Source: Acidovorax sp. Leaf191 (GTDB taxonomy: Bacteria > Pseudomonadota > Gammaproteobacteria > Burkholderiales > Burkholderiaceae_C). Taken from it: a stretch of DNA of 64,000 nt. Location: positions 310,001-374,000 of the forward strand of contig NZ_LMPT01000018.1 of the NCBI RefSeq assembly GCF_001424425.1, given 5' to 3'. Made by a program: the position numbers and the translations under genes. Under the pieces are notes generated by a model, which was given only the letters and a program-made list of their open reading frames with translations, made no database searches and was not told where the DNA came from. Shown one piece after another: positions 14,063-56,325 of this stretch (positions are counted from its first letter, which is position 1; the number at the start of each line of letters is the position of its first letter).

Positions 14063-15001
14063 TCAGAGCCCCGTAAACCGGGCGGGGTCGTAGCTCTCCA
14101 ACACCGGGTTGCAGTGGTAGCTCGCCACATACGAGCCCGTGTCTTGGTCGAAGCTGATGCTGGTGTCGTAGATGATTCCGCCGATGGCATCCTTCTTGGG
14201 GCAGAACACCGCGCCGTCCTTCGTGACCGAACCATCCGCCACGGCCTGCCGGACCTGATCGCGCACCACTGCGGCTGTGTTTGCGGTGTGCCAGGCCAGA
14301 CCGCAACTGGCGGGGAATTCGGTACCCCGGCCGCCCGAATACGGGTCCAGGCCGGTGATCTCGGGCGACTGGTGCTTGTTCTGGTGGGGCTCCAGGATGA
14401 CGTCGATGTGCTCGTCCCCGAAGTCTTCCGACAGCAGGCCCAGATGCCCCTCAGGCACTTCGAACTTCGCAGCGTACTTGCCGCCGGATTCCCACAGCCT
14501 CTCGAGTGCCGGCCCGTCATCGTGCGTGAAGATGCCGCCCTTGAGCTCCAGCAGCCACTTCAACGACGAACTGTCGAAATCGCCGGATTTGCCGTATTCG
14601 TTGCGCAGCGTGTCCACCACTGCGGCCTGGAAGTCCTCGCTGGCGGGCAGCTCGCCCCCCAGGGCGTTCGATACGAGCACGGGCAGCGCTTCGGCGCGCA
14701 GCTCGTTCTTCTTTTCGCGGATGTACGCCTGCACGTCCTGGAGCGTCACGTCGCCATTGCCGGTCGCAGCGCTGTTCGATTTGCCGAAAACGAAGTCGGA
14801 CTCGTTGCGGGTGACCAGCTCCAGCAATTGCGACTCCATGCCGCCCATGTCGGCGCAGGTGAACAACTCCGTCGGTGTGGCAAAGATCGCCTCGAAATTT
14901 TCCTCGATGCTCGCCTTGGACTTTGGGGGAATGGTGTGCTCTGGCGGGGCGCTCCGAAGCGCGGCAAGACTGGTGTGCGGTGTTCCCTGTACATACGACA
15001 T
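14063..15001 (-). CDS. Orphan protein of unknown function
   Basis: The 312-residue protein has no signal peptide or membrane segment. It is acidic, with scattered cysteines and a C-terminal GGIIYDTSISFDQDTGSYVASYHC block resembling a beta-rich fold. I do not recognise a family. A very strong ribosome binding site (AAGGAGGTC, 7 bp before the ATG) supports the start. It stands alone on the minus strand, 100 bp downstream of the VWA gene. Its base composition is slightly lower in GC than the neighbouring MoxR cassette, which may indicate acquisition. No secretion signal or promoter box was identified. Confidence 0.7.
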   Translation of the reverse strand: MSYVQGTPHTSLAALRSAPPEHTIPPKSKASIEENFEAIFATPTELFTCADMGGMESQLLELVTRNESDFVFGKSNSAATGNGDVTLQDVQAYIREKKNELRAEALPVLVSNALGGELPASEDFQAAVVDTLRNEYGKSGDFDSSSLKWLLELKGGIFTHDDGPALERLWESGGKYAAKFEVPEGHLGLLSEDFGDEHIDVILEPHQNKHQSPEITGLDPYSGGRGTEFPASCGLAWHTANTAAVVRDQVRQAVADGSVTKDGAVFCPKKDAIGGIIYDTSISFDQDTGSYVASYHCNPVLESYDPARFTGL

Positions 15002-15100: not shown

Positions 15101-16360
15101 TTACCGCGCCTTGGCGCTGGTCACCATGCCCTGGGTCGCCGCCCACGCGTTGATGTCGTCGCGCCGGATGGCCGCCGCCATCAACTGCGGGAAGGCGTCG
15201 GGCGTGCACGCGAACGAGGGCACGCCCAGGGCGGCCAGCTTGGCCGCCAGCGCGTGGTCGTAGGCGGGCGCGCCTTCATCGCTGAGCGCCAGCAGGGTGA
15301 TGAACTGCACGCCGCTGTCCACCAGCTCCGCGGCGCGGCGCAGCAGGTTGGCCTCGACGCCGCCTTCGTACAAATCGGAGATCAGCACGAAGATGCTGTT
15401 GCGCGGCTCCTTGATGAGGGACTGGCAGTACGCCACAGCGCCGTTGATGTCGGTGCCGCCGCCCAATTGCACGCCGAACAGCACGTCCACCGGGTCGTCG
15501 AGCTTTTCGGTCAGGTCCACCACCGCGGTGTCGAACACCACGAGCTTGGTGGATACGGCGGGCAGGCTGGCCAGCACCGCGCCGAATATGCTGGAGTACA
15601 CCACCGAGTTGGCCATGGAGCCGCTCTGGTCGATGCACAGCACCACCTCGCGCTGCGGGCGCCGGGCCTTGCGGCCGTAGCCGATCAGCGTCTCGGGCAC
15701 CACGGTGCGGTAGTCGGGCTGCCAGTGCCTGAGGTTGGCGCGGATGGTGCGCTGCCAGTCGATCTCCGAGTGGCGCGGGCGGCGGTTGCGCTGGCTGCGG
15801 TCCAGCGCGCCGCTCACGGCCGAGCGCATGGGGTCTTCCAGCCGCTTCATCAGGTCGTCCACCACGCGGCGCACCACCATGCGCGCGGTGTCCTTGGTGC
15901 CCGCAGGAATCACGTGCGACAACGCCAGCAGGTTGGCCACCAGGTGCACGTCGGGCTGCACGGTCTCCAGCATCTCGGGCTGCAGCAGCATGTCGCGCAT
16001 GTTCAGGCGCTCCATGGCATCGCGCTGCATCACCTGCACCACCGAACTCGGAAAGTACTTGCGGATGTCGCCCAGCCAGCGCGCCACGCTGGGCGACGAG
16101 GCGCCCCGGCCCCCACGCCGCTCGCGCGACTGCAGGCCGCCCGGGCCGTCGGCCTCGTACAGTGCGGCCAGGGCCTGGTCGATCTCCACCGCAGGGCCCG
16201 TCAGGGGGCCGCAGCTTTGCGCCGCCTCGCTGCCCAGCACCAGGCGCCAGCGGCGCAGGCGCTCTTCATGGGAGAGCGGGGTGGGCTGGGTGTCCGCCTC
16301 AAGTTCCGGTGCCGATGGCGTTGCGTGGGCGGCCGGCGCGGGGTTCGGGGTTGTCGTCAT
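15101..16360 (-). CDS. VWA domain-containing protein of a MoxR-type cassette
   Basis: The 419-residue product begins with a Pro/Ala-rich tail. A helical region follows (about residues 50-230), then a C-terminal von Willebrand A domain with the metal-ion MIDAS motif CIDQSGSM near residue 258 and a later GGGTDINGAV threonine loop. MoxR-class AAA+ ATPases typically act with such VWA proteins to remodel or insert metal into partner proteins. The start at 16360 was chosen because it overlaps the DUF5682 stop as ATGA. A longer frame exists upstream. It is the last gene of the five-gene minus-strand cassette. Confidence 0.85.
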   Translation of the reverse strand: MTTTPNPAPAAHATPSAPELEADTQPTPLSHEERLRRWRLVLGSEAAQSCGPLTGPAVEIDQALAALYEADGPGGLQSRERRGGRGASSPSVARWLGDIRKYFPSSVVQVMQRDAMERLNMRDMLLQPEMLETVQPDVHLVANLLALSHVIPAGTKDTARMVVRRVVDDLMKRLEDPMRSAVSGALDRSQRNRRPRHSEIDWQRTIRANLRHWQPDYRTVVPETLIGYGRKARRPQREVVLCIDQSGSMANSVVYSSIFGAVLASLPAVSTKLVVFDTAVVDLTEKLDDPVDVLFGVQLGGGTDINGAVAYCQSLIKEPRNSIFVLISDLYEGGVEANLLRRAAELVDSGVQFITLLALSDEGAPAYDHALAAKLAALGVPSFACTPDAFPQLMAAAIRRDDINAWAATQGMVTSAKAR

Positions 16361-18777
16361 GCCGTCAGTCCCATCAGTTCGCGCAGCAGCGGAAGCGGCA
16401 GGGCCGCGCGGGTTTCGTCCCATGCGGGGGCGGCCAGCGGTGCGGCGGCGGTGCGCGCGCCCTGGCTCGCTCGCTGCCCCAGGTCGCGCCGCTCGCTCGG
16501 GCCGAACGCCGAGAACGTGCGGCGCACCAGCGGCAGCACCCGCACGAAGTGTTCTTCATTCAGGCTGGAGAGCCACTGGTCCACCAGCTGCCACACATTG
16601 GCATCGTGCAGCAGCACCACGGCGTTGCGGTTGAGGAAGCCGTCCAGCCACGCCGCCGCCTTGCCGGGCTCCGCGCCCGCCGACAGGTGCAGCGACAGCG
16701 CGGGTCCGACCTGGTCTGCCGACCAGACGCCATCGTCGAGCAGCAGCCGCACCGCCACGCCCTGCAGCAGCTCGTGCGCGCTCTGGTGCTGCTGAGCCAC
16801 CTGGGCCAGCGCACGCTGCCACTGCTCGGTCTGCTCAGGCGACTGCCGCAGTGCGATGGCAGCGTGGGCGCCCAGGAACTTTTCGCGCAGCTGGTCGGCG
16901 GCGTCGTCGTCGATGGCGCTGCAGGCCAGCGGCAGGCTGATGGCCGCACGCACGATGAGGCTGTCCAGCACATGGCTGACCAGGGTGGCGTCGGTCTGCC
17001 GCACATTGCCGTAGCGGAACACGTTGGACAGCGGCGGCAGCGCGGCCAGCAGCTGCAGCGCATCGCCGGTGAGCGCCGCGCGGTTTTCCAGCGCGCGCGT
17101 GGCGGCGGCCACGGCCGTGTCCAGGTCGGCCAGCAGCACGCGGTCCACCAGGGACGACAGCTCGCCCAGGCTCTCGGCGCGTGCGGACTCGTCGGTCACG
17201 CGCGCCGTGGCGGCCTGCGCCAGCGTCTGCCCCCACTGGCTGGCCTCGATGAGGCGCAGCACGAACTCGGGCTGCCACTGCAGGTTCCACACCTCGTGGA
17301 AGGTGCCGCGCGACGAGCGCCCCACACGGGCCAGCGTGCCCCAGGGCACGTCCAGCAGGTTCAGGCGGTGCAGCAGGTGGCTGCGCGCCAGGTCGTTGGC
17401 GTTGCGCAGGTCCAGGTCCAGCGTCTTGTGCGTGGCCTCGGGCTTCAGGCGCAGGCTCTTCTGGGCCTGCTCCACATCGCGCTGCAGCGGCACCATGGGC
17501 ACGTCGGGCGGCACCGCGCCCAGGCGGTCGCCCACCACCAGCGCATCGTGGATGAAGTGCAGCACCGACTCGTCGCCCAGCGTGAGCACGGTGCGGCTGG
17601 CCTCGTGCAACTCTTCCAGCCCCGGGGCGGGCCGCTCGCGCAGCGCGGCCAGGGAATCGGCCAGCCGTGCGGCCTCGATCAGGTGGGCGGACGAGCAGTC
17701 CAGGTCGCGCTCGCGCATCAGCCGCGCCACACGGGCCAGCCAGCCGACGGCGCGCGGCTGCGTGCTCTGGTGGCTGGTCCACAGGTGCTCGTACCAGCCG
17801 GGCGCGTGGATGCCGGCGCCATAGCCGCTGGCGCGGGCCAGGTGGCGGTAGGTCCAAGGCACCCAGGTGCTCTGCACCTTGACCTTGGGCAGGCCCTTGA
17901 GCAGCGCCTGGTCCGCCTTGGCCGTGGCCTTGGCCTGCAGGCCCCCCAGGTGCCAGGCGCCGCAGACCACGGCGATGCGCTCGAAGCCTTCCTTCTGCGC
18001 CGCGCGGATGCACTGGCGCATGTGCGCCTCGCGCAGGGCTTCACGCTGCGCTTCCTCGGGGCTGCGGTGGCGCTCGCCCCACTCGCTGCGCAGCGCCAGC
18101 ATGGCTTCGGAGATGGCGGCAAACAGCTCTTCGCCGTCACCGCGCTCCTCGACCATGTGGTTCCACCAGGCTTCGCCGTCGGCATAGCCTGCGGCCTGTG
18201 CCAGCCAGGTCAGCGGGTCGCCGCGTGCGCCCTCTGCGTCGGCTCGCGGGTCCAGGTCAGCATCGGCGTCGCCGGGGTGGGTGGGGGTGGCTGCAGCGGC
18301 GGGCTCTTCGGTGGAGCCTGTGGCGGGAGCGTCGGCCGACTCGCCGGGCGTGTCGGGCGCTGCAGGCCCGGCCCGCGGAGTGTCTGCATCGCTCCCGGCC
18401 GCTGGTTCCGCCTGGTCGGCTTGTTCTGCCTTTTCGGCGTCCGCACGTGCCTTCTCGATGCCCAGGCTGTGCGCCACCGGCAGGTCGATGAAGCGCACCG
18501 GCACCTGGGCCTGCACCGCCCACAGGGCGGCCTGCCACTCCGGCGAGAACACGGCGAAGGGGTGGTACACCGCCAGGCCTTTTTCATCGGGAGCGTGGCT
18601 GAGCAGGGCCACCGGCGGCTTCATGTCGGCATGCACCATCAGCGGCAGCAGCGCGTCGCCCTCCGGCGGGCCTTCGATCAGCACGCAGTCGGGGCGCAGC
18701 GCCTCGAACGCGCGCACCAGGCTGCGCGCACAGCCGGGGCCGTGGTGGCGCACGCCGAAGTAGTGGGGTTCGCTCAT
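16357..18777 (-). CDS. DUF5682 family protein
   Basis: The 806-residue protein starts MSEPHYFGVRHHGPGCARSL, the very conserved N-terminus of DUF5682 (FGVRHHGPG). An EGPPE motif follows near residue 35. There is a low-complexity Ala/Glu/Pro-rich insert at about residues 120-190 and a large helical C-terminal part. I infer a soluble, cytoplasmic partner of the MoxR/VWA pair; its biochemical activity is unknown. The frame continues upstream through six 9-bp repeats (TTG-CGC-CAC codons) with possible TTG starts. I chose the ATG at 18777 because FGVRHHGPG should be N-terminal. Its stop overlaps the VWA start. Confidence 0.85.
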   Translation of the reverse strand: MSEPHYFGVRHHGPGCARSLVRAFEALRPDCVLIEGPPEGDALLPLMVHADMKPPVALLSHAPDEKGLAVYHPFAVFSPEWQAALWAVQAQVPVRFIDLPVAHSLGIEKARADAEKAEQADQAEPAAGSDADTPRAGPAAPDTPGESADAPATGSTEEPAAAATPTHPGDADADLDPRADAEGARGDPLTWLAQAAGYADGEAWWNHMVEERGDGEELFAAISEAMLALRSEWGERHRSPEEAQREALREAHMRQCIRAAQKEGFERIAVVCGAWHLGGLQAKATAKADQALLKGLPKVKVQSTWVPWTYRHLARASGYGAGIHAPGWYEHLWTSHQSTQPRAVGWLARVARLMRERDLDCSSAHLIEAARLADSLAALRERPAPGLEELHEASRTVLTLGDESVLHFIHDALVVGDRLGAVPPDVPMVPLQRDVEQAQKSLRLKPEATHKTLDLDLRNANDLARSHLLHRLNLLDVPWGTLARVGRSSRGTFHEVWNLQWQPEFVLRLIEASQWGQTLAQAATARVTDESARAESLGELSSLVDRVLLADLDTAVAAATRALENRAALTGDALQLLAALPPLSNVFRYGNVRQTDATLVSHVLDSLIVRAAISLPLACSAIDDDAADQLREKFLGAHAAIALRQSPEQTEQWQRALAQVAQQHQSAHELLQGVAVRLLLDDGVWSADQVGPALSLHLSAGAEPGKAAAWLDGFLNRNAVVLLHDANVWQLVDQWLSSLNEEHFVRVLPLVRRTFSAFGPSERRDLGQRASQGARTAAAPLAAPAWDETRAALPLPLLRELMGLTA

Positions 18778-18828
18778 GTCAGGGGTCCACGGTGCACGGC
18801 ACCGGCGCGCAACCCGCCGGCACGGGGG

Positions 18829-18891
18829 GCGCAAGTGGCGCAAGTGGCGCAAGTGGCGCAAGTGGCGCAAGTGGCGCAAGTGGCGCAGGTT
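18829..18891. repeat. 9-bp minisatellite upstream of the DUF5682 gene
   Basis: Six perfect tandem copies of GCGCAAGTG (18829-18882) and one degenerate copy (18883-18891) fill part of the 148-bp gap between the AAA gene stop and the DUF5682 ATG. On the minus strand each unit reads TTG CGC CAC (Leu-Arg-His), in frame with DUF5682. Copy-number change would therefore never shift the frame, but it would alter spacing or an N-terminal extension. Confidence 0.9.
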
Positions 18892-18925
18892 GCGCCAATG
18901 GAACCGGTGTCACAAGGGGCCTGCG

Positions 18926-20017
18926 TCATGCCATTTCGCGGAAGGCGCGGTACAGGTCCTTCCAGTCGGCGCGTTCCTTCACCACGGTTTCCAGGTATTC
19001 GTTCCAGACCACCTGGTCCTGCACCGGGTCCTTGACCACGGCGCCGATCAGGCCCGAGGCCACGTCCAGCGAGCTCAGCGTGCCGTCGCCGAAATGGCCG
19101 GCCAGCGCCATGCCGTTGTTGATCACCGAGATGGCCTCGGCGGTGGACAGCGTGGACGAGGGCGACTTGATCTGCGTCTTGCCGTCCTCGGTCTTGCCGT
19201 TGCGCAGCTCGCGGAAGATCTGCACGATGCGCCGCACTTCCTTCAGCGCCGGGGGCTCGGCGGGCAGCTGCAGCGCGCGGCCCATCTCGGCCACGCGCTT
19301 GACCACGATGGCGACCTCGTCGTTCTCGTTGCCGGGCACAGGCAGCACCACGGTGTTGAAGCGGCGCTTGAGCGCGGCCGACAGCTCGTTCACGCCCTTG
19401 TCACGGTTGTTGGCGGTGGCGATGATGCTGAAGCCACGCACGGCCTGCACCTCGCTGCCCAGCTCCGGGATGGGCAGGGTCTTTTCGGACAGCACGGTGA
19501 TGAGGCTGTCCTGCACGTCGGCCGGGATGCGCGTGAGCTCTTCGATGCGCGCGATCTTGCCCGCGCGCATGGCCTGCATCAGCGGGCTGGGCACCAGGGC
19601 CTTTTCCGACGGGCCATGGGCCAGCAGTTGGGCGTAGTTCCAGCCGTAGCGCAACTGCTCTTCGCTGGTGCCGGCCGTGCCCTGGATGAGCAGGGTGGAG
19701 TCACCGCTAATGGCGGCCGACAAATGCTCGGACACCCAGGACTTGGCCGTGCCCGGCACGCCGTACAGCAGCAGGCCCCGGTCCGTGGCCAGCGTGGCCA
19801 CGGCGACCTCCATCAGGCGCGCATTGCCGATGTACTTGGCGCTCACCTGAAAGCCATTGGCGAGCGTGGCGCCCATGAGGTACTGCACCACGGCCCAAGG
19901 CGACAGGGCCCAGTTGTCCGGGCGCTGGCGCTGGTCGTGCTTTTTCAGTTCCGCCAGTTCTTCGGCGAACTGGTGCTCGGCGTGCTGGCGCATGACGGAA
20001 GAAGGTGTGGAGCTCAT
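18926..20017 (-). CDS. MoxR-like AAA+ ATPase
   Basis: The 363-residue ATPase has Walker A GVPGTAKS near residue 89 and sensor/Walker-B-like segments (GKIARIEELTRIPADVQDSLITVLSEK) that are typical of MoxR proteins acting on a 'gate' partner. A second-region motif FSIIATANNRDKGVNELSAALKRRFN (sensor 1 and arginine finger) follows around residue 210. It is cytoplasmic. Its start overlaps the DUF5691 stop by 4 bp (ATGA). It lies in the middle of the SWIM-DUF5691-AAA-DUF5682-VWA cassette and is the presumed motor of the system. Confidence 0.9.
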   Translation of the reverse strand: MSSTPSSVMRQHAEHQFAEELAELKKHDQRQRPDNWALSPWAVVQYLMGATLANGFQVSAKYIGNARLMEVAVATLATDRGLLLYGVPGTAKSWVSEHLSAAISGDSTLLIQGTAGTSEEQLRYGWNYAQLLAHGPSEKALVPSPLMQAMRAGKIARIEELTRIPADVQDSLITVLSEKTLPIPELGSEVQAVRGFSIIATANNRDKGVNELSAALKRRFNTVVLPVPGNENDEVAIVVKRVAEMGRALQLPAEPPALKEVRRIVQIFRELRNGKTEDGKTQIKSPSSTLSTAEAISVINNGMALAGHFGDGTLSSLDVASGLIGAVVKDPVQDQVVWNEYLETVVKERADWKDLYRAFREMA

Positions 20018-21591
20018 GGCGTGGCGTGGGTGGTGGGTGTCGTGGACAGGGGTTGAAGGGCGCGGCGTGTGGCGATGACCTGCATCACGTCATGCACCAC
20101 GGTGGCAAAGGATGGGGTCTCGTCGGCATGGCGCGGCCACTGGGCCAGCGCGGGCAATACATCGGGGTGCAGCGCGCAGGCCAGCTCCGCCAGGTCCGAG
20201 CGCAGCCCGTAGTCGTCCCTCAGCGTGCCCTGGCGGGCCCGCTGCAGCAGGATGTCTGCCAGCGCCGCGGACAGCGGGGCCGACAAGGTGTCCGCAGGCG
20301 GGCAGGCCGCCAGCATCTGCGGCGCAAGGGTGTACAGCTGCACCGTCACGCCCTCCTTGTCCAGCCGCTGCTGCCAGATCTTTTCACGTGCGGCGCGGGG
20401 CAGCAGCGCCAGAATGGCCGCCACATCGGTGCGCAGCTGGTGGGCAGCGCCGGTGTCGATGAAGGCCTGGGCCCAGTCGGTCTGCGGCGCTGCCAGCAGC
20501 ACGTCGCGCCAGCCGCGCAGCAGCGACTGCGCCCAGTCGGTGCCCCGGGCCCACTCGATCAGCTCGCTGGCCGACAGGCTGGTGTGCATGGTCCACCAGC
20601 CCAGCGGCACCTGGCGCACCAGCTGGTACAGCCACCAGGCACGTTCGCCGAGCGCCTCGTGCTGGGGGCGGGGCGTGTCCAGGTTGTCGGCTTTCCAGTC
20701 GGCGCCCACGGCCTCGGGCGCATCGATGACCCAGCGCTTGCGCAGCAGCGCGCGTTCGTGGCGCACCAGCGGGGCCATGCGGTCTGCGGCGCGCCGGGGA
20801 TGGGCGGCGTCGGGCAGGCGCAGCAGCAACTCCAGCGCGCTGGCGCGCACCTCGCGGCTGCGGTCGGTGCGCAGGCCGTCGAGCAGCGGCTCGTCCTGCA
20901 GCGAGAGCTGGTCGGCCAGCACGCCCACCAGGTCGGCGCGCTCCTTGGCGCCCAGCTCGGCCAGCGCCTGCGCGAGCCGCTGCCGGGCCTGCTCGGGCTG
21001 CGTGGCGCGCTCGGCCGCCAGGAAGGCGCGCCGCTGTTCCAGGCTGCCGTCGGTCCACCGTGTTTCTTCGGGGGCCGACGCGCTCACGCCCACGGCGTAG
21101 CGCCAGTCCTCGCGCTGGCTGGCCAGCCACCGGCCCCGCTCGCCCAGCACCGGCGCCAGCACGGGCCGCAGCGCGACCGAGCGGCGCCCCAGGTCCAGGG
21201 CTGCGGGCAACAGGCGCGGCGGCAGCCGGTACCCCGCCCCGGCCAGCGCCAGGCAGATCTGGTGGTGCAGCCGGGGCGGCCCCTCTTGCAGCGCCCAGGT
21301 GATCAGGTGCGGCAGCTGGCCGTCAGGCCAGGCCTGCAGCGCGGGCCGCGTGTCGGGCTCTGCCTGGGTGGCCGATGCGGGCAGGGGGCTGGGCACGCCC
21401 TGCAGGCCCGCCAGGCTGCAGGCCGCGAGCATGCCCGAGGCGCGCAGCAGGGCCGTGGGTGCATCCGCCGCCTGCGCCATCGCGTCGTCGATGGCCTGGC
21501 CGATGGCGCCGGGCCAGTGCGGCTGCGCGCTGCTCTGGCGCTCGGTGCCCACCATCGCGGTGGCCAGCAGCGGGGTCCATGCGGCGCTCAT
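20014..21591 (-). CDS. DUF5691 family helical-repeat protein
   Basis: The 525-residue product starts MSAAWTPLLATAMVGTER. The ATAMVGTERQ stretch is the conserved N-terminal motif of DUF5691. The remainder is almost all helical, with HEAT-like units (for example the regions around residues 215-290), suggesting a scaffold. Length and neighbours match DUF5691 proteins of MoxR/VWA cassettes. It overlaps both neighbours by ATGA: its start with the SWIM-gene stop, and its stop with the AAA start. Reading further upstream in the same frame is possible but would overlap the SWIM gene. Confidence 0.8.
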   Translation of the reverse strand: MSAAWTPLLATAMVGTERQSSAQPHWPGAIGQAIDDAMAQAADAPTALLRASGMLAACSLAGLQGVPSPLPASATQAEPDTRPALQAWPDGQLPHLITWALQEGPPRLHHQICLALAGAGYRLPPRLLPAALDLGRRSVALRPVLAPVLGERGRWLASQREDWRYAVGVSASAPEETRWTDGSLEQRRAFLAAERATQPEQARQRLAQALAELGAKERADLVGVLADQLSLQDEPLLDGLRTDRSREVRASALELLLRLPDAAHPRRAADRMAPLVRHERALLRKRWVIDAPEAVGADWKADNLDTPRPQHEALGERAWWLYQLVRQVPLGWWTMHTSLSASELIEWARGTDWAQSLLRGWRDVLLAAPQTDWAQAFIDTGAAHQLRTDVAAILALLPRAAREKIWQQRLDKEGVTVQLYTLAPQMLAACPPADTLSAPLSAALADILLQRARQGTLRDDYGLRSDLAELACALHPDVLPALAQWPRHADETPSFATVVHDVMQVIATRRALQPLSTTPTTHATP

Positions 21592-22946
21592 GCGGCACTC
21601 CTTTGCCACAGGGGCGACGGCGCCGGGGCTTCGGCCTGGTGTTGGGGCGGAGCGCTCTCCCACGCGGTCATCGGCACCAGGTTGCTGCCGTCCCATTCGC
21701 AGGCCAGGTGCACCGCGTGCCCACCGGTCGCGGCCAGCAGGGTCCACAGGTCGGCGTCGCCCACGGCCAGGGGCAGCAGGTGCCCGTCGGCATGCAGGTA
21801 CGGCTGGCCGTCGCGCAGCAACGGCACGGCGTGGTGCATCACCACCGGATGGCTGAACACCCAGGGGCTGGCGGCGATGCGGCGCGCCACGCCGTCCCAT
21901 TCGTGCGCCGTGCCGGCATCGGGCCACTGCGGGGCGGCCGGAGGGCCCGCCTGGTCCACCACCTGCGCGCGCAGGCCCGCCGTGCCGGGGAAGAAGGCCA
22001 GCGTGGCGCTGACACCCGTCCCGGCGAAGAAGGATTGCTCGAAACCCCGGCCGCCGAAGGCGTGGTCCCACAGCAGCGCCCGGCGCTGGCTGCGGGCGCC
22101 GTGCAGCCATACGCGGCGTTCGGTGAGCTTGTCATCGCGGTCCTGGGCCACCACGCCCAGCACGGTCCAGTGGTCGTCCACGCGCTCGCCGTGCTCCAGC
22201 ACCCCGGCCTTGTCGTGCGGCCAGCCCAGCATGGCGCGCAGCTCGGCCTGCAGGGCCGGCGGCAGGCTGGCGCGGCGCTGCAGGGCTTCGCAGGCCAGCT
22301 GCATGAGGCCCAGGCGCGCCAGCGTGCGCTCGGGCCAGTCCTCGCCGTCACGGATGCCTGCGGCGGCTTCGCGGATGCGCACGCCCAGGCCCGGGGCCTG
22401 CGCATCCACCATGCGCGCGGCCATGGTCTGCCAGGTCTGCAGCACCTCGGCGTTCAGCGAACCGAGCCCGCGGCTCACCTGGTCGCACAGCCAGCGCTGC
22501 AGTTCCTGCGCGGCGGTTTCCATGCGCTGCCAGCGCTGGGCTTCGCGTTTGGCCTGCGCCTGTTCGTCCACCGGGGCGGCGGCCTTCTCGGCCTGGCGCA
22601 CTTCCTTTTGCTGCGCCTTGTCGGCGCGCGAGCCGAGCCATTCGCTCACCCACGCGGGCGGTGTCGTGGCCTGAAAGAGTTGGGGGTTCTGCGCCTGGAT
22701 CATGAGCAGCGCCAGGCCGTGCTTGCACGGAAACTTGCGGCTCGGGCAGCTGCAGCGGAAGGCGGGGCCGTTCAAGTCCACCTGCGTCTGGTAGGGCTTG
22801 GAGCCGCTGCCCTGGCACTCGCCCCAGACGGCGTGGTCGTCGGCGCCCAGCAGGGGCCATTTGGCGGGGGATACCAGGCCCTTGGCGGCCTTGGCCGAAG
22901 CGTCGTCGGGCGCCAGCGCCACCACGCCTTCCATCGTGAATGCCAT
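21588..22946 (-). CDS. SWIM zinc finger family protein
   Basis: The 452-residue protein has an N-terminal SWIM zinc-binding motif C-x-C-x(n)-C-x-H, seen as FRCSCPSRKFPCKHGLAL at about residues 63-80. SWIM fingers are predicted to bind DNA or protein. After a short charged segment there is a mostly helical region and a C-terminal beta-rich part. The start at 22946 has an in-frame alternative four codons later. It is the first gene of the cassette. Its relationship to E. coli YehQ (SWIM protein beside the YehL AAA and YehP VWA proteins) supports a common MoxR-linked system. Confidence 0.85.
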   Translation of the reverse strand: MAFTMEGVVALAPDDASAKAAKGLVSPAKWPLLGADDHAVWGECQGSGSKPYQTQVDLNGPAFRCSCPSRKFPCKHGLALLMIQAQNPQLFQATTPPAWVSEWLGSRADKAQQKEVRQAEKAAAPVDEQAQAKREAQRWQRMETAAQELQRWLCDQVSRGLGSLNAEVLQTWQTMAARMVDAQAPGLGVRIREAAAGIRDGEDWPERTLARLGLMQLACEALQRRASLPPALQAELRAMLGWPHDKAGVLEHGERVDDHWTVLGVVAQDRDDKLTERRVWLHGARSQRRALLWDHAFGGRGFEQSFFAGTGVSATLAFFPGTAGLRAQVVDQAGPPAAPQWPDAGTAHEWDGVARRIAASPWVFSHPVVMHHAVPLLRDGQPYLHADGHLLPLAVGDADLWTLLAATGGHAVHLACEWDGSNLVPMTAWESAPPQHQAEAPAPSPLWQRSAA

Positions 22947-23181: not shown

Positions 23182-24621
23182 TCAGGCCTGGGTGTAGGCC
23201 GTCTTCACGGTGGTGTAGAACTCGGCGGCGTAGCGGCCTTGCTCGCGCGGGCCGTAGCTGCTGCTCTTGCGGCCGCCGAACGGCACGTGGTAGTCCACGC
23301 CGGCCGTGGGCAGGTTCACCATCACCATGCCGGCCTGGGCGTGGCGCTTGAAGTGCGTGGCGTGCTTGAGGCTGGTGGTGGCGATGCCGCTGGCCAGGCC
23401 GAACTGCGTGTCGTTGGCCAGGGCCAGCGCTTCGTCGTAGTTCTTCACGCGCTGCACGCTCACCACGGGGCCGAAGATTTCTTCGCGGTTGATGCGCATG
23501 CCGGGCGTGGTCTCGGTGAACAGGGCGGGGCGCAGGTAGAAGCCGGGCGCGCCGTCCGCGTTCTTCTCCAGGGCCTCGCCGCCGAAGGCGAGCTTGGCGC
23601 CTTCCTGCTGGCCGATGCCGATGTATTCCAGGTCCTGCGCCAGCTGGCGGTCGTCCACCACGGGGCCGATGTCGGTGCCGGCCTTGCGGGCGTCGTCCAC
23701 CTTCAGGGTCTTCATCTTGTCGATCATGGCGGCCACGAAGCGGTCATGGATGCCTTCGGTCACGATCACGCGGCTGCTGGCGGTGCAGCGCTGGCCAGTG
23801 GAGAAGAAGCCGCTGTTCACGGCAGCGCCCACGGCCACGGCCAGGTCGGCGTCGTCCAGCACCACGAAGGGGTTCTTGCCGCCCATCTCCAGCTGCACCT
23901 TGGCGCCGCGCGGCACGCAGGCGGCGGCCACGCGCTGGCCCGTGCCCACCGATCCGGTGAAGCTCACGCCCGCGATGCGCTCGTCTTCCAGCAGCACCTG
24001 GCCCACGTCCGAGCCGCGGCCCATCACCAGGTTGAACACGCCGGCCGGCAGGCCCGCGCGGTGCAGGATGTCGGCCAGCGCCCAGGCGGAGCCGGGCACC
24101 ACTTCGGCGGGCTTGAACACCACGCAGTTGCCGTAGGCCAGGGCCGGGGCGATCTTCCAGGCCGGGATGGCGATGGGGAAGTTCCACGGCGTGATGATGC
24201 CGATCACGCCCAGGGGTTCGCGCGTGATCTCGATGCCCACGCCGGGGCGCACCGAAGGCACCAGCTCGCCGCCAGGGCGCAGCGCCTCGCCGGCGAAGAA
24301 CTTGAAGATGGCGGCCGCGCGGCCCACTTCGCCGATCGCCTCGGGCAGTGTCTTGCCTTCTTCGCGGGCCAGCAGGTCGCCGAGCTCGGCCTTGCGGGCG
24401 ATGATCTCGTTGCCCACCGCGTCCAGGATGTCAAAGCGCTGCTGGGGCGTGGACAGGCTCCATGCCGGGAAGGCCGCGTGGGCTGCCGACACGGCCTCCA
24501 GCGCCTGCTCGCGGCTGGCCACGGCGTAGTCGCCGATCACGTCGCGCGTGTCGGACGGGTTGGTGTTGCGGTAGTTGCGGGCGCCTTCGGTCCAGGTGCC
24601 GCCAATCAGGTTTGCATGCAT
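23182..24621 (-). CDS. NAD(P)-dependent aldehyde dehydrogenase, probable 2,5-dioxovalerate (alpha-ketoglutaric semialdehyde) dehydrogenase
   Basis: The 479-residue enzyme has ALDH-family motifs: LEMGGKNP with the general-base Glu near residue 245, the catalytic cysteine in GQRCTAS near residue 280, and a C-terminal NLPTAGVDYHVPFGG block. It resembles YcbD/KgsaDH-type enzymes that oxidise 2,5-dioxopentanoate to 2-oxoglutarate, the last step of oxidative hexuronate and pentose pathways. Context supports this: uronate dehydrogenase, lactonase, galactarate dehydratase, TRAP genes and a GntR regulator lie beside it. A regulator-like palindrome sits upstream at 24777. Succinate-semialdehyde dehydrogenase activity is an alternative. 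Confidence 0.8.
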   Translation of the reverse strand: MHANLIGGTWTEGARNYRNTNPSDTRDVIGDYAVASREQALEAVSAAHAAFPAWSLSTPQQRFDILDAVGNEIIARKAELGDLLAREEGKTLPEAIGEVGRAAAIFKFFAGEALRPGGELVPSVRPGVGIEITREPLGVIGIITPWNFPIAIPAWKIAPALAYGNCVVFKPAEVVPGSAWALADILHRAGLPAGVFNLVMGRGSDVGQVLLEDERIAGVSFTGSVGTGQRVAAACVPRGAKVQLEMGGKNPFVVLDDADLAVAVGAAVNSGFFSTGQRCTASSRVIVTEGIHDRFVAAMIDKMKTLKVDDARKAGTDIGPVVDDRQLAQDLEYIGIGQQEGAKLAFGGEALEKNADGAPGFYLRPALFTETTPGMRINREEIFGPVVSVQRVKNYDEALALANDTQFGLASGIATTSLKHATHFKRHAQAGMVMVNLPTAGVDYHVPFGGRKSSSYGPREQGRYAAEFYTTVKTAYTQA

Positions 24622-24776
24622 GGCTGTGGTGGGAGTGAGTGAGGTGGATGGATGGGGGTCGACAAGTCTTCAAGCCCTCCGGGCTGTGGACGTCGTGGCG
24701 CTGTGATACGGCGCCGTGCCGCAAGCGCCGTGGTGGTGCGGCGGCCCAAGGACGACGCACCCAGGCAAAAGAATAT

Positions 24777-24796
24777 GTTGTATGTCATCGTACAAC
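24777..24796. promoter_or_regulatory. Candidate GntR/FadR-type operator, ALDH promoter
   Basis: The sequence GTTGTATGTCATCGTACAAC has inverted GTTGTA/TACAAC ends. Its right part TCGTACAACAA also occurs (reverse complement) in the palindrome at 25655. It lies in the 245-bp gap between the regulator stop and the ALDH start, so it may control ALDH. Confidence 0.55.
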
Positions 24797-24866
24797 AATG
24801 TGCACATACTTTTGCCAGGGTAACTACTTAGGCGCCGAGACTGTGGCCTGCCAGTGGCGGGGGCGT

Positions 24867-25595
24867 TCAGCTGGCCTCGGCCTGTGCGCGCCGGCGGCGT
24901 TCACGGCTGTTGGCCAGGTGGGTGCGCATGGCGGCGCGGGCGGCGTCCGGGTCCTGCGCCACGATGGCGTCGTAGATGCTTTCGTGCTCGCCGTTCACGC
25001 GCCGCAGGTACTGGCTGCGCTCGTTGCTCGCGCCGTCCACCGAGTCCAGGCGCGCGCGTGGAATGATCATGCTGCCCAGCGTGCCCATGAGTTCCGCGAA
25101 GTGGCTGTTGTGCGTGGCGCGTGCGATCTCCAGGTGGAACTGGAAGTCCGACGCCACCGCGTCGCGGCCTGCCTCTACAGCGGCGGCCACGGCATCAAGC
25201 GCTTCGCGCATGGCCTTGAGGTTGCCCTCGGAGCGCCGCTGGGCGGCCAGGGCCGCCGCCTCGGTCTCCACGCCGATGCGCAGCTCCAGCACGGCGATCA
25301 CGTCGCGCAGCGTGCTGAACTGGTCGGGCGTGATCTTGAAGCCGGGCGCCTGGCCCAGCCCCAGAACGAAGGTGCCGATACCGTGGCGCGTCTCCACCAG
25401 GCCCGAAGCCTGGAGCTTGGAAATCGCCTCGCGCACCACGGTGCGGCTCACGCTGAACTCCGTCATGATCGCGGCTTCGGTCGGCAGCTTGTCGCCCAGG
25501 GCCAGGCGGCCGTCGCGGATGCGGTCGCCCAGGGATTCGACCAGCTCCAGGGCCAGGGTGCGGGGCTTGCGGCGAAGCTCGGTAACGGTGTTCAT
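24867..25595 (-). CDS. FadR/GntR family transcriptional regulator (FCD type)
   Basis: The 242-residue regulator has an N-terminal GntR winged helix at about residues 14-80 (GDKLPTEAAIMTEFSVSRTVVREAISKLQASGLVETRHGIGTFV). A C-terminal FCD effector domain at about residues 95-225 contains FHLEIARATHNSHF, part of the metal/ligand pocket. Members near uronate genes typically bind a pathway sugar acid and derepress. Two related palindromes flank the gene. The one at 25655, in the gap to the divergent uronate dehydrogenase, would allow autoregulation and control of the main operon. Confidence 0.9.
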   Translation of the reverse strand: MNTVTELRRKPRTLALELVESLGDRIRDGRLALGDKLPTEAAIMTEFSVSRTVVREAISKLQASGLVETRHGIGTFVLGLGQAPGFKITPDQFSTLRDVIAVLELRIGVETEAAALAAQRRSEGNLKAMREALDAVAAAVEAGRDAVASDFQFHLEIARATHNSHFAELMGTLGSMIIPRARLDSVDGASNERSQYLRRVNGEHESIYDAIVAQDPDAARAAMRTHLANSRERRRRAQAEAS

Positions 25596-25654
25596 TTCTT
25601 GGTGTTATCCCTATGTGGCCTCGTGGGGCAGAAGCGGTACATTGCTCTTTCTTT

Positions 25655-25667
25655 GTTGTACGACAAC
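25655..25667. promoter_or_regulatory. Candidate operator in the divergent regulator/uronate dehydrogenase promoter
   Basis: The palindrome GTTGTACGACAAC (5-bp arms, 3-bp centre) lies 60 bp upstream of each gene's approximate start. Its reverse complement shares TCGTACAACAA with the site at 24786-24798, suggesting the same regulator binds both. Confidence 0.6.
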
Positions 25668-25726
25668 TGATGACGTATAGCAAGAGTGTTGTCACTGTAC
25701 CAAGAACCTCTGCCTTTGTAACCGCC

Positions 25727-26545
25727 ATGCCTTGCCATCCGACGCCGATCCGTTTTCAACGCTTGCTTCTGACGGGCGCCGCCGGGGGGCTGGGCAAAGA
25801 GCTGCGCACGCGGCTGCCGGCGTATTGCACCACGCTGCGCCTGTCGGACATCGCGGACCTGGGCGCAGAGGCCGAGGGCGAGGAAGTGCGCCCCGCACGG
25901 CTGGAAGATGCCGGCGCCGTGCTCAGCCTGCTGGAAGGCGTGGATGCCGTGATCCACCTGGGCGGCGTGTCCACCGAACAGCCCTGGGACCTGATCCTGC
26001 AGGCCAACATCGTCGGCGCATACAACCTGTACGAAGCCGCGCGCAAGCAGGGCGTCAAGCGCGTGGTGTTCGCCAGCTCCAACCACGTCACCGGCTTCTA
26101 TCGCCAGGACGAAGTCGTGGGCCTGGCAGACCCGGCCCGCCCGGACGGCCTGTACGGCCTGTCCAAGGCGTTTGGCGAAGACCTCTCGCGTTTCTATTTC
26201 GACCGCTACGGCATCGAGACCGTGTGCCTGCGCATCGGCTCCTCGTTCCCCGAGCCACGCAACCGCCGCATGCTGGCCACCTGGATGAGCTACGACGACC
26301 TGGAGCGCCTGGTGGTCGCCAGCCTCACCGCGCCGGTCGTGGGCCACAGCACCATCTACGGCATGGGCGACAACACCACCACCTGGTGGGACAACACCCT
26401 GGCGCGCCACATCGGCTACCGCCCGCAGGACAGCTCCGAGCCCTTCCGCGCCAAGGTCGAGGCGGCCGACCCCCACCCCGACCTGACCGACCCCGCCGTG
26501 ATCTACCAGGGCGGCCCCTTCGTGCGCACCGGCCCTTTCGAATGA
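25727..26545 (+). CDS. udh: Uronate dehydrogenase (NAD-dependent)
   Basis: The 272-residue SDR-fold enzyme has an N-terminal Rossmann motif TGAAGGLG at about residues 16-23, an HLGGVST motif near residue 78, and YGLSK (YxxxK) near residue 142 following the SSNHVTGFY segment. This pattern matches uronate dehydrogenases, which oxidise D-galacturonate or D-glucuronate to the aldaro-lactone. I chose the ATG at 25727; the frame is open upstream to 25613, but that would include the operator. Its stop overlaps the start of the lactonase gene (ATGA), so this is the first gene of the uronate operon. Confidence 0.85.
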   Translation: MPCHPTPIRFQRLLLTGAAGGLGKELRTRLPAYCTTLRLSDIADLGAEAEGEEVRPARLEDAGAVLSLLEGVDAVIHLGGVSTEQPWDLILQANIVGAYNLYEAARKQGVKRVVFASSNHVTGFYRQDEVVGLADPARPDGLYGLSKAFGEDLSRFYFDRYGIETVCLRIGSSFPEPRNRRMLATWMSYDDLERLVVASLTAPVVGHSTIYGMGDNTTTWWDNTLARHIGYRPQDSSEPFRAKVEAADPHPDLTDPAVIYQGGPFVRTGPFE

Positions 26546-51961: not shown

Positions 51962-52607
51962 GTCTGGTCTTAGTGTCGCTTCGACCGCAAGCAGTCGGTC
52001 AAACCGCCCGCTTGGTTTACTGCTTCAGGCTGATCTGAGCCATTGGTGTCGCCCGCCTGGGTGGCAGTCGGTCGCCACGGCCTTAGTCAACAAGGGCATC
52101 ATCCAAGGCCGACTGAAGCCACCACGAAGCTAGTACAGCCCCGCGCGGCCCCGGTGTCCTCGCAGCATCCCCAGGCTCGTGCCATTCACCCCTTGGCGGC
52201 CTCGCCAGCGCCCTCAGCAGTACCCCCGCCCCAAACCCTGGCGCGCTATCGAGACCCCGCCTCGTCTGAACTTTTGATCGACCGTTTCTGCCTACTCTGC
52301 CGAGTTGCTGCAACTCAAAATCGGCCCAGCTGTCTCTGTTGGCAGTTAGTGCCGCGCGCCAAACGGCCAGACTGGCTATCTGTATTCTCCGAAGGCCTCG
52401 AGAACCCCGGCGCGCAGTGTGCCCCGCGCCTGCCCTCTCGCTAGACAACACGCTTTTGACGTGCTGATCGGAACGGCTAAAACGCCAGCTGGCTTGAGAG
52501 TTGGGGGGGCGCCATAGCCTTTGGCTGACGTGTTTTGACGGCTTTTGTCGCCCATAGATAGGCGAGATAGAAAGCCCGGTTACGTTACGGACTTATGATG
52601 AGTGTGA
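51962..52607. other. Non-coding stretch downstream of the integrase
   Basis: About 650 bp with no convincing gene. Two overlapping open frames (52043-52444 plus, 52083-52451 minus) have no recognisable composition or start site, and I regard them as chance. GC falls toward the right end, where the cassette-like genes begin. Confidence 0.5.
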
Positions 52608-52629
52608 GACGGAATTCGGCCAGAAGCGG
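52608..52629 (-). repeat. Cassette-boundary repeat, copy 1 (partial)
   Basis: GACGGAATTCGGCCAGAAGC is the inverted core of the family GGCTGCTtnTGGCCGGATTCTGCC. It lies just upstream of the 52646 gene. Confidence 0.6.
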
Positions 52630-52645
52630 ACTTTTCAATACTGCT

Positions 52646-53089
52646 ATGACATCAGGTTCCATAGACACTGCACATTGCAAAACGTCGGACCGCGTTCTCG
52701 AACTTCTGCTATCGCTTGACCACGGTGCTGATCTGGATCTACTGGACGACCGTGAGGTTCTGGCAAAGCTTTTGGCCAGTCCCGAGCAGCAAGAGGTCGC
52801 CGCAAAAATTCGGCTTCTTTTGGAGGCGTATGTTTATGAGCAATCCCTCGAATTCAATGAAGCGGCGAGTGGCAAATCGGCCGTGTATAAAGCCTATCTC
52901 ACTAAACAAGCTGCTCAGCCGCTTCGGCGGAACGAGAACTCCAAGAGATTTCGGGATGCCTTGCGAGACCTCCTCGAATCAGATCGCATCTTTCAGCTTC
53001 TTCCCAATGAAGCAAACCCCGACGTCGTGGAGGTGCGCCGCCAGCTCAACATGTTGAACTTGAATTCGGCCAAACGCCAAACGAATTGA
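52646..53089 (+). CDS. Small protein of unknown function
   Basis: The 147-residue product is largely helical and acidic-to-neutral (DRVLELLLSLDHGADLDLLD at the N-terminus; DALRDLLESDRIFQLLPNEA near the C-terminus), with no signal peptide. It has lower GC and different codon choice from core genes. The frame opens upstream to 52595, but the ATG at 52646 lies after the boundary repeat. It could be an accessory cassette gene; the family is unknown. Confidence 0.5.
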   Translation: MTSGSIDTAHCKTSDRVLELLLSLDHGADLDLLDDREVLAKLLASPEQQEVAAKIRLLLEAYVYEQSLEFNEAASGKSAVYKAYLTKQAAQPLRRNENSKRFRDALRDLLESDRIFQLLPNEANPDVVEVRRQLNMLNLNSAKRQTN

Positions 53090-53128
53090 ATTCGATGTTT
53101 GCTGTAGGGCTGAACACGGGACCGCTTT

Positions 53129-53179
53129 GGGCCCGCTAGCGTCCCTCGGCGTGGGGCAGAATCCGGCCAAGAGCAGACT
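53129..53179 (-). repeat. Cassette-boundary repeat, copy 2
   Basis: Minus-strand reading gives TTGGCCGGATTCTGCCCCAC followed by GCCGAGGGACGCTAGCGGGCCC, a full copy of the family also seen at 55785 and 56326. It separates the 52646 gene from the next one. Confidence 0.75.
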
Positions 53180-53226
53180 CCGGTAGAGCGCATAAGCGGT
53201 CATTTCAATTCACCGGCGGAACTACC

Positions 53227-53433
53227 CTAGTAGCGCACATGTGTTCCGAGATTCCAGACCTGTGAGAGGCGCAGGCTATTTCTCGCATGGCATCTTGGAC
53301 ACTGTTGGTCGTCCAGGAGAGGTAGGAATTCAGCTTCCAAGCGAAACAGCCCCTTTTCTGATGCCTCGACCACCATATCGCGGAAGCCTGGATGTTGTTG
53401 CAGCGCATTCGCCAGCGGCAGGGTCTCAGGCAC
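53227..53433 (-). CDS. Small CxxC protein of unknown function
   Basis: The 68-residue product, starting at GTG 53433, has GFRDMVVEASEKGLFRLEAE and a later QQCPRCHARN zinc-binding-like CPRC motif. The second half of the site is not obvious (no second CxxC). The start follows directly on the boundary repeat (GACGTTAGCGGGCAAGTGCC), as in a gene cassette. A longer in-frame start at 53484 would run through the repeat and is less likely. Confidence 0.45.
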   Translation of the reverse strand: MPETLPLANALQQHPGFRDMVVEASEKGLFRLEAEFLPLLDDQQCPRCHARNSLRLSQVWNLGTHVRY

Positions 53434-53435
53434 TT

Positions 53436-53482
53436 GCCCGCTAACGTCCATTCCGTGCGGCAGAATCCGGCCATAAGCCGAC
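53436..53482 (-). repeat. Cassette-boundary repeat, copy 3
   Basis: Minus-strand reading gives GGCTTATGGCCGGATTCTGC then CGCACGGAATGGACGTTAGCGGGC. It ends in an attC-like GTTAGCG and lies between divergent genes at 53433 and 53502. Confidence 0.7.
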
Positions 53483-53501
53483 ATTCATACACGCGTTGAA
53501 G

Positions 53502-53834
53502 ATGACACCTGAATTTGCTGAAGCTCTGAAAGCCAAGATGGACGCATTTCTATCTTGGTCCTCCCACCGTCCTGCAGCGGATGGCCGCCTTGTGAAGTAC
53601 GAGGGCGTTCTGTTTGTTGGTGCTATGGACGTGCCTTTTGACGAGTTGTCAGAAGAGGTTGAAGGCTTGTTCTGCGAGGGGTACGCCCTCGATTGGAGCG
53701 AGCACCTCGGCAGAATTTATCTCGTCGCATGGGAAGCTACTGACCCGGTGGTGCCATGGGAACTTATCTACCAAGAGAAAGACTTGGTGGACATCAAGGT
53801 GCTTATGGCCGCAGAACAGAACGGTCAAGAATAG
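53502..53834 (+). CDS. Small acidic protein of unknown function
   Basis: The 110-residue acidic protein (MTPEFAEALKAKMDAFLSWS start) has a central GYALDWSEHLGRIYLVAWEA and a helical C-terminus. Its size and acidity resemble small immunity-type or antitoxin-like proteins, but this is composition only. A TTG six bases upstream is an alternative start. Copies of the boundary repeat lie just before and after it. Confidence 0.5.
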   Translation: MTPEFAEALKAKMDAFLSWSSHRPAADGRLVKYEGVLFVGAMDVPFDELSEEVEGLFCEGYALDWSEHLGRIYLVAWEATDPVVPWELIYQEKDLVDIKVLMAAEQNGQE

Positions 53835-53857
53835 GTCTTGGTGAGCCAGCTACAACC

Positions 53858-53893
53858 TTCGGCTGTGGGGCAGAATCCGGCCAGGAGCAGCCT
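53858..53893 (-). repeat. Cassette-boundary repeat, copy 4
   Basis: TTCGGCTGTGGGGCAGAATC followed by CGGCCAGGAGCAGCC (reverse complement of the family core) lies 24 bp downstream of the 53502 gene. Confidence 0.65.
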
Positions 53894-53964
53894 GTGGAAG
53901 CGAATGGAAGCAGACGCTCAACGCCCAGTTAGGCTGGTGGCTGGCGCGAGTGAGCTGAGCATTT

Positions 53965-54342
53965 TCACTCTGCCTCGATGGATGCGTCAGCAACCGAACC
54001 GCTGGGCTTGAATCTTACGACCAATGTGCTGTGCCGCCAGTCCCAGTGGCACTGGCCGAGGCCATAGCGGAGTTGGGTGGCGTGTCCGGCCTCAGCTTGC
54101 CCCAGTTGCTCAAGTATTTTCTCTTTGGATAGACCTGGAAGTCCGCCGCTCTGAACGAGTGTCAGCGCCATGCCACCACGGACGCAGCCTGGGTCGTTTA
54201 GAAGAGTCTGGTCCGAGCGCTCTTGCCATTGATGTGCGTTGAATGGTTCGGGCTCTGCGTGAACGGCGCTAATGTGCCTGTAGCCAATAGCTGCGATGGC
54301 GAGTACGACCACGATGGCTGCGAGCGAGAGATATCTACGCAT
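53965..54342 (-). CDS. Small membrane-anchored or secreted protein
   Basis: The 125-residue protein starts MRRYLSLAAIVVVLAIAAIG, a signal peptide or N-terminal anchor. A ~100-residue periplasmic domain follows, containing PGCVRGGMALTLVQSGGLPG and a tryptophan-rich C-terminus (CHWDWRHSTLVVRFKP). It has a BamE/SmpA-like feel but I cannot support that. The ATG is 6 bp after GTTAGGC, the right end of an attC-like site (54348-54437) shared with the gene upstream. Confidence 0.55.
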   Translation of the reverse strand: MRRYLSLAAIVVVLAIAAIGYRHISAVHAEPEPFNAHQWQERSDQTLLNDPGCVRGGMALTLVQSGGLPGLSKEKILEQLGQAEAGHATQLRYGLGQCHWDWRHSTLVVRFKPSGSVADASIEAE

Positions 54343-54347
54343 AGGGG

Positions 54348-54437
54348 GCCTAACGTCGGGCGTAACCGGCGACCAATGAACGGCGCCGCATTGCGGCGGG
54401 ACGACTTTGGGCGTCCGCGTTGACGGACCTGTTAAAT
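54348..54437 (-). repeat. Integron attC-like recombination site
   Basis: Read on the minus strand this 90-bp interval starts ATTTAAC (RYYYAAC, overlapping the TAA stop of the upstream gene) and ends GACGTTAGGC (GTTRRRY core). The middle has partly complementary arms (GCCGCAATGCGGC, GCGGACGC..). Gene-attC-gene order on one strand is the hallmark of integron cassettes. No integrase is nearby. Confidence 0.65.
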
Positions 54438-54935: not shown

Positions 54936-54958
54936 CGCGTTTCCGCAATTTAACGTGA

Positions 54959-55002
54959 TGTATCCCGCAAAACCTGCGGGATACACTGGACCGTGCGGGA
55001 TA
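54959..55002. promoter_or_regulatory. Inverted repeat plus third half site, candidate operator
   Basis: TGTATCCCGCA (54959-54969) and TGCGGGATACA (54975-54985) are perfect 11-bp inverted arms with a 5-bp spacer. A third TGCGGGATA follows at 54994-55002. The site lies between the gene at 54432 (minus) and a plus-strand gene remnant at 55067. It could be the operator of a toxin-antitoxin or XRE-type regulator, but none is intact. Confidence 0.55.
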
Positions 55003-55066
55003 TTCTGGACACTGATTTCTCCTGGAAGCGGCTTGCAGCATAGGTTTGCAAGGAGTGCCCTGCTCA

Positions 55067-55231: not shown

Positions 55232-55262
55232 GTTCGTCGCCAAAGCAGACGCTCAACAGCTA

Positions 55263-55780: not shown

Positions 55781-55784
55781 CTAA

Positions 55785-55834: not shown

Positions 55835-55865
55835 AATGCAGTCTTTAGCTCTATCTGCAAGTGCT

Positions 55866-56291: not shown

Positions 56292-56325
56292 ATACAGTGC
56301 TAAGCGAAGTTGATGTCACGGTCGT

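Follow-up and report, generated by a model that had tools for sequence, protein, structure and literature searches.

Pairs of a MoxR-type AAA+ motor and a protein with a VWA domain serve nitric oxide reductase, CO dehydrogenase or Rubisco, and the described pairs CoxD–CoxE, NorQ–NorD, CbbQ–CbbO and RavA–ViaA each serve an enzyme or a respiratory complex. MoxR proteins are reported to assist the maturation or activation of particular protein complexes, including metal enzymes (PMC3893208). The same couple is found in ternary conflict systems together with a third conserved protein, a VMAP, iSTAND, FtsH or beta-propeller protein; the passages of PMC7159879 devoted to these systems describe variable effectors fused to the C terminus of a fast-evolving vWA protein and, for the VMAP systems, a strict gene order. 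PMC10910872 ties vWA–MoxR–VMAP to type III CRISPR, with no mention of DUF5682. As we followed up a first-pass annotation of a 64,000-nucleotide stretch from Acidovorax sp. Leaf191 (contig NZ_LMPT01000018.1, positions 310,001 to 374,000; the whole stretch is called the window below), we analysed a five-gene cassette (Table 1) in which a MoxR–VWA couple likewise comes with a conserved third protein, in this case of the DUF5682 family. The N-terminal domain of the DUF5682 protein probably belongs to the TIKI/TraB/ChaN superfamily, and we tentatively propose, at somewhat less than even confidence, that the cassette encodes an ATP-driven MoxR–VWA motor acting on this protein as on a TIKI-like enzyme.

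The five open reading frames (ORFs) of the cassette, for a SWIM, a DUF5691, a MoxR AAA+, a DUF5682 and a VWA protein, are open and share the minus strand, and three of the four junctions are ATGA stop/start overlaps (21588–21591, 20014–20017 and 16357–16360), just as the first-pass annotation had laid them out. Its names for the SWIM, MoxR AAA+, DUF5682 and VWA proteins, the last described as bearing a metal ion-dependent adhesion site (MIDAS), agree with the Pfam scores and with the intact MIDAS residues given below: SWIM reached 24.1 bits (cut-off 19.6), DUF5691 (PF18944) 396 bits (cut-off 27), AAA_5 132 bits, VWA_CoxE 180 bits and DUF5682 (PF18934) 880 bits (cut-off 26), the last match spanning profile positions 3–726 of 727 and protein residues 22–801.

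For the DUF5682 protein we built an alignment of 202 rows, 82 of them from the window and 81 of 85 candidate loci (L027, L058, L047 and Escherichia coli were left out) and 120 from proteins of the B-type form described below, and compared it with 27 TraB/GumN sequences (30 loci less three that were weak or incomplete), 18 ChaN and 3 EreA sequences. In hhalign comparisons, residues 1–345 matched TraB with an E value of 2.2e-4 and ChaN with 9.5e-4; a smaller DUF5682 alignment gave 2.1e-3 and 4.2e-3, and in this smaller setting all controls (the C-terminal half of DUF5682, MoxR, VWA, SWIM, DUF5691 and five shuffles) scored 0.049 or worse. On the same scale, TraB against ChaN scored 7e-5, ChaN against EreA 8e-6 and TraB against EreA 0.29. 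None of the 80 column- or block-shuffled decoys per family did as well as the real profile (best decoy E value 0.015), and the reversed profile gave 0.15 and 0.39. The first motif alone, in a run without decoys, aligned on the GTxH of TraB at E 0.019, with no such match to ChaN.

The similarity extends to the order of the conserved residues, (G)xxH, E, R-E-x-x-M-like and GxxH, which is shared by the three families: H11, E35, R249-E-x-x-M253 and G273..H276 of DUF5682 correspond in order to H49, E75, R248 and G272..H275 of TraB and to H70, E98, D222 and G246..H249 of ChaN. E35, R249, E250, M253, G273 and H276 are present in all 202 DUF5682 rows, as is the whole R-E-x-x-M motif, and H11 in 195. 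In TraB the arginine is found in 27/27 sequences, followed by N or D in all 27 and by a methionine at the same place in 22 (RNxxM-like), while ChaN has D-x-x-M in 15/18, its aspartate matching E250 and not R249 when the methionine is taken as the anchor. The distance from the first histidine to the glutamate is 24 in 196/196 DUF5682 sequences, 26 in 20/27 TraB (24–27 overall) and 28 in 18/18 ChaN; that from the R/D to the last histidine is 24–28 in 197/202 DUF5682 (mode 27), 25–28 in 26/27 TraB (mode 25) and 22–27 in the 18 ChaN (mode 27). An equal spacing of 27 residues for the latter, seen in three reference sequences, was discarded as a family rule, as the modes differ across the whole families. 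E. coli YehM carries RHH, IEGP, REAFM and CGGWH in that order, making H11, E35, R175 and H202 the candidate active-site residues of that protein. Metal-dependent hydrolase activity is a property of some members of the superfamily. The proposed likeness of DUF5682 to this superfamily, weak but specific and with the residues in matching order, is new here. Compared with the TIKI/TraB/PrgY, ChaN and erythromycin esterase proteins, as treated in the relevant part of PMC12329661, DUF5682 has collinear residues at similar but variable spacing and differs in its AAA–VWA partners, in a long C-terminal extension and in W, E and Y residues that are invariant besides. A passage in PMC8939145 on Tiki/TraB peptidases near ATP-grasp genes was too thin to use.

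Several results weigh against this assignment. The HH-suite probabilities are low, 45% for TraB and 22% for ChaN; some 30 columns, from the second motif, carry the hhalign score; and the set of three EreA sequences showed no similarity to DUF5682 (E value 0.68). HMMER searches of 5,760 ORFs with the TraB and ChaN profiles found no DUF5682 protein at significance (best E values 1.3 and 0.35, respectively), and the top match of the ChaN profile was a DUF5691 protein at 0.055; DUF5682 ORFs made up 11 of the 37 TraB and 26 of the 113 ChaN matches listed. A sequence search of the PDB returned no relative of DUF5682 at E 1, and a second search four at 0.44 or worse. Motif spacings vary inside each family, and the first GxxH has its glycine in 77/202 DUF5682 sequences, with P in its place in 117/202; most B-type rows lack this glycine.

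We next considered the conservation of the gene set in the best 80 of 584 relatives from a DUF5682 search of genome contigs, a choice that favours the form seen in the window (A-type). Partners were scored with iterated hidden Markov models, and the 12 of the 80 loci with less than 4.2 kb before or 1.5 kb after DUF5682 were excluded. All five genes were found in 65 of the 68 judged loci, in exactly the same order and strand in 63, and MoxR, DUF5682 and VWA were consecutive in 65. The record titles of the listed loci include Pseudomonadota, Verrucomicrobiaceae, cyanobacteria, Chloroflexi, Bacteroidota, Planctomycetota, Acidobacteria and Streptomyces. In two Streptomyces loci (L099, L106), SWIM and DUF5691 lie on the opposite strand, adjoining the MoxR–DUF5682–VWA trio, and in one excluded locus (L098) the VWA gene precedes SWIM. 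The comparison of DUF5682 and DUF5691 neighbourhoods that the first-pass annotation had proposed thus shows the five genes conserved together. SWIM and DUF5691 are fused in a single ORF in a Hydrogenophaga metagenome-assembled genome (MAG; L038) and two Planctomycetota MAGs (L056, L076), a hint that the two proteins may touch. The conserved order and these fusions agree with the earlier view of one functional unit and probably one complex. As counterexamples, in three of the 68 loci (L046, L051, L094) some or all of the partner genes are absent from the neighbourhood, two loci outside the 68 (L044, L090) show no VWA in the available downstream DNA, and DUF5691 is located elsewhere in two of the three genomes checked (those of L094, L051 and L046), once beside a MoxR gene. 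From these arrangements we read the cassette as two modules, SWIM–DUF5691 and MoxR–DUF5682–VWA.

The distribution of DUF5682 is patchy: in the phylum, 12 of the 299 genomes searched were positive. Within the order, DUF5691 and DUF5682 were found in the identical 6 of 150 genomes, that of the window included, a count not corrected for relatedness; in each of the six the two genes are about 1.2–2.0 kb apart, enough space for a MoxR gene. Two of the six also have a second, lower-scoring DUF5682 locus. Such a combination was seen within one genome in G196 (L004 and L013) and also in G326, so the two DUF5682 forms are not mutually exclusive.

By gene order and sequence kinship, yehL-yehM-yehP-yehQ of E. 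coli is a divergent sister form of the cassette. YehM is a DUF5682 protein (331 bits, Pfam), and the window proteins share 41.5% identity with YehL (MoxR), 25% and 43% with YehM in two segments, and 38% for the VWA proteins. The MoxR, DUF5682 and VWA genes follow in the same order and a SWIM protein is again present; on the other hand, no DUF5691 was found in the E. coli set, the SWIM gene (yehQ) lies downstream, and WGR and DUF4132 genes lie upstream. BLAST gave no match between the window SWIM protein and YehQ, and the similarity of A-type and B-type SWIM proteins is confined to the surroundings of the zinc finger. The likeness to YehL, YehP and YehQ drawn on the first pass was therefore sound as to kinship; it omitted YehM, and what it called an exact set is a variant of yehLMPQ. 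Of the two E. coli motors compared, the window MoxR is closer to YehL (E value 6e-77) than to RavA (no match at E 10). In 5,162 of 5,426 E. coli genomes, at least 80% of the operon is covered.

Seven lower-scoring DUF5682 loci (L020–L026) form the B-type with E. coli: they have MoxR–DUF5682–VWA in common and lack the SWIM–DUF5691 pair upstream. The trio is complete in 6/8, as L024 stops near the contig end without VWA and L026 has no VWA match. In 5/8 (L021, L022, L023, L025 and E. coli), a pattern search shows a SWIM-motif ORF that either overlaps the end of VWA or comes after it; in Pfam, YehQ is above the SWIM cut-off of 19.6, L025 falls short of it at 17.6, and L022 gave no match. Large neighbours related to one another are encoded at 15 of 93 loci (L015–L107), the eight of the B-type plus seven A-type ones from Bacteroidota; all six of these proteins that were scanned contain DUF4132, three HEAT_2 and one WGR. 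Mentions of yehM mutations in copper-evolved E. coli (PMC12409786) and of yehQ in a study of butanol tolerance (PMC6442406) were, in the parts concerned, too thin to use.

Motor and co-factor retain their key residues. The MoxR protein has Walker A GVPGTAKS at 86–93, E159-E160 at the Walker B position, sensor-1 ATAN at 200–203 and arginines R218-R219, and G86, P88, G89, T90, K92, E159, E160, R218 and R219 are each present in 87/87 sequences, the window included. The MIDAS of the VWA protein is D244-x-S246-x-S248, T303 and D329, with T303 conserved in 84 of 86 sequences and the other four residues in all 86. As these residues are intact, both proteins are expected to be active. The usual Walker B form is Asp-Glu; all 87 MoxR sequences have Glu-Glu there (19538–19543 in the window). 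The nearest solved relatives of MoxR in a PDB sequence search were midasin (E value 3e-18), an AAA+ chain with its own MIDAS domain, and NorQ (2e-5); the same search with VWA gave nothing at E 0.01. The Pfam bpMoxR profile scored 22 bits on the window motor, below the cut-off of 27. The MoxR-type motor, the VWA_CoxE family and the NorQ match are what the cassette shares with the CoxD–CoxE, NorQ–NorD, CbbQ–CbbO and RavA–ViaA pairs; unlike these, it has no enzyme or respiratory complex gene as a constant neighbour.

The SWIM motif CxCx6CxH spans residues 65–76 (about 22719–22754) and is found in 73/74 sequences, the window included; C65, C67, C74 and H76 are invariant in a 64-row alignment, and the PDB search with SWIM gave one match, at E 0.94. 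DUF5691 is the least conserved of the five proteins in the three loci compared, at 31–38% identity to the nearest kin. The earlier description of it as HEAT-like draws weak support from an hhalign E value of 0.0056 against the HEAT-bearing DUF4132 proteins; Pfam found no HEAT match in it.

In the mechanism that we propose, the N-terminal domain of DUF5682 would be a metal-dependent hydrolase or peptidase, or a metal- or haem-binding relative of these. The CoxE-type VWA protein would offer its MIDAS as the docking point for the MoxR ring, and the docked ring would remodel DUF5682, loading or activating the TIKI-like site or gating substrate access to it. SWIM and DUF5691 would form another subcomplex, which would bring in the substrate, whether protein or nucleic acid. 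The E. coli operon would encode a sister version of this machine that has its own SWIM protein and is flanked by DUF4132 and WGR genes. DUF5682 is the best candidate for the target because it is encoded between the motor and VWA genes in both forms; that MoxR–VWA acts on it we infer from gene order, which counts among the weak points of the proposal. Alternatively, DUF5682 may be a non-enzymatic structural part or adaptor, with which MoxR–VWA remodels an unlinked client as NorQ–NorD or RavA–ViaA do, the TIKI-like residues being relics or binding a cofactor such as haem in the manner of ChaN. This has some appeal, as no metabolic enzyme family is a constant neighbour (the widest recurring one is the DUF4132-like protein above) and PF04187 bears the name Cofac_haem_bdg, but the polar, catalytic-type residues invariant in 202/202 sequences go beyond what a scaffold would seem to need, and we consider it somewhat unlikely. 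The SWIM fingers and the WGR or DUF4132 neighbours of B-type loci could also mean a stress machine brought to DNA or RNA by these proteins, the TIKI-like site being secondary; a passage of PMC8533742 reports that DR2173 (WGR) and the operon of DRA0166 (DUF4132) of Deinococcus are up on DdrO depletion, but it does not put these genes beside this cassette, and with no nuclease or helicase family among the five proteins by Pfam we find this distinctly unlikely.

The first-pass annotation pointed to proposed conflict modules among similar sets, and an anti-phage or conflict system of the MoxR–vWA ternary kind with DUF5682 as its third component would fit the composition, the patchy spread and matches in 30 records of a plasmid collection, some of them chromosome-sized. 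It would also fit two MAG loci of other groups (L041, L045), whose nearest relatives for four of the five genes are each other and Burkholderiales loci, the DUF5682 top match being cyanobacterial, a pattern for which block transfer and MAG contamination are both possible. Against it, the effector fusions of the described systems were not seen, with a VWA C-terminal tail longer than 60 residues in 0/85 loci, and in three loci VWA was 64–75% identical to its nearest kin compared with the 31–38% of DUF5691, a comparison that differs from the entropy test of PMC7159879. PADLOC matches within the cassette were marginal and on the motor (best E value 0.006), and the near-universal presence of the operon in E. 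coli also argues against such a role, which we therefore regard as very unlikely. The suggested co-occurrence with defence islands yielded scattered PADLOC matches and no clear defence neighbourhood: among 137 flanking ORFs (of 138 picked) from 17 loci, 19 models gave matches at 1e-10, of which 17 hit one protein and 2 hit two proteins, counted without a background set, and several of the matches, such as DndA-type cysteine desulfurase and helicases, look generic. YehL, SWIM, WGR, DUF4132 and DUF56 do not occur in the main text of PMC7159879, and Pfam assigns the third protein of our cassette to none of the four families named there. A MoxR protein 52% identical to that of the window is encoded on MT835988.1 (L161), an unverified and unannotated 14-kb faecal 'phage' contig that may be bacterial DNA; we dropped this phage lead.

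Table 1. Features of the five-gene cassette, in window coordinates and in the order of transcription
Feature	Position	Strand	Evidence
SWIM zinc-finger protein, 452 aa	21588–22946	minus	ORF and Pfam SWIM
DUF5691 protein, 525 aa	20014–21591	minus	ORF and Pfam DUF5691
MoxR AAA+ ATPase, YehL type, 363 aa	18926–20017	minus	ORF and Pfam AAA_5
9-bp tandem repeat (GGCGCAAGT), 7.6 copies	18828–18895	none	in MoxR–DUF5682 junction
DUF5682 protein, 806 aa, E. coli YehM family	16357–18777	minus	ORF and Pfam DUF5682
DUF5682 N-terminal domain, residues 1–345, proposed TIKI/TraB/ChaN-like	17743–18777	minus	profile comparison and residues
DUF5682 residue codons H11; E35; R249; M253; G273–H276	18745–18747; 18673–18675; 18031–18033; 18019–18021; 17950–17961	minus	
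CoxE-type VWA protein, 419 aa, complete MIDAS	15101–16360	minus	ORF and Pfam VWA_CoxE

The junction between MoxR and DUF5682, the sole one without an overlap, is a gap of 148 bp that contains the tandem repeat, which could affect the relative expression of the two halves. We took the ATG at 18777 as the start of DUF5682; a longer ORF opens upstream at a TTG within this gap. The guanine–cytosine (GC) content of the cassette region, 65–75%, is similar to most of the window, and hence does not mark the cassette as an obvious newcomer. Directly downstream of VWA lies a 312-aa ORF on the minus strand (14063–15001) with no Pfam match at E 0.001. Upstream, 23182–26545 holds an aldehyde dehydrogenase, a GntR/FCD regulator and a NAD epimerase-family gene, which look like a sugar-acid catabolic cluster and are probably unrelated to the cassette. 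Farther away, GC drops to about 57–59% at 52001–58000, compared with roughly 64–73% in most of the window, and this could be an acquired stretch.

In the open-licence literature searched, we found no mention of DUF5682 or DUF5691 and no client or function for the cassette or the YehL branch, in line with the first-pass annotation, which knew of no published function for this exact set; mentions of YehQ, YehP and YehM were gene lists, screens or unrelated words. A bolder and rather doubtful extension of our proposal is a widespread bacterial proteolytic or hydrolytic machine, absent from the literature searched, in which MoxR–VWA feeds or metallates a TIKI-fold site in DUF5682 or YehM and the SWIM–DUF5691 arm picks the substrates. 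If true, this would be an assembly akin to AAA+ proteases in which a TIKI active site takes the place of the known peptidase folds, and most E. coli would have a related form of it. With the residue-level prediction for YehM, an orphan operon in the best-studied bacterium would become an enzyme system that can be tested, and DUF5682 and DUF5691, two domains of unknown function, would be tied to a single machine whose relatives occur in E. coli, Streptomyces, Bacteroidota and cyanobacteria.

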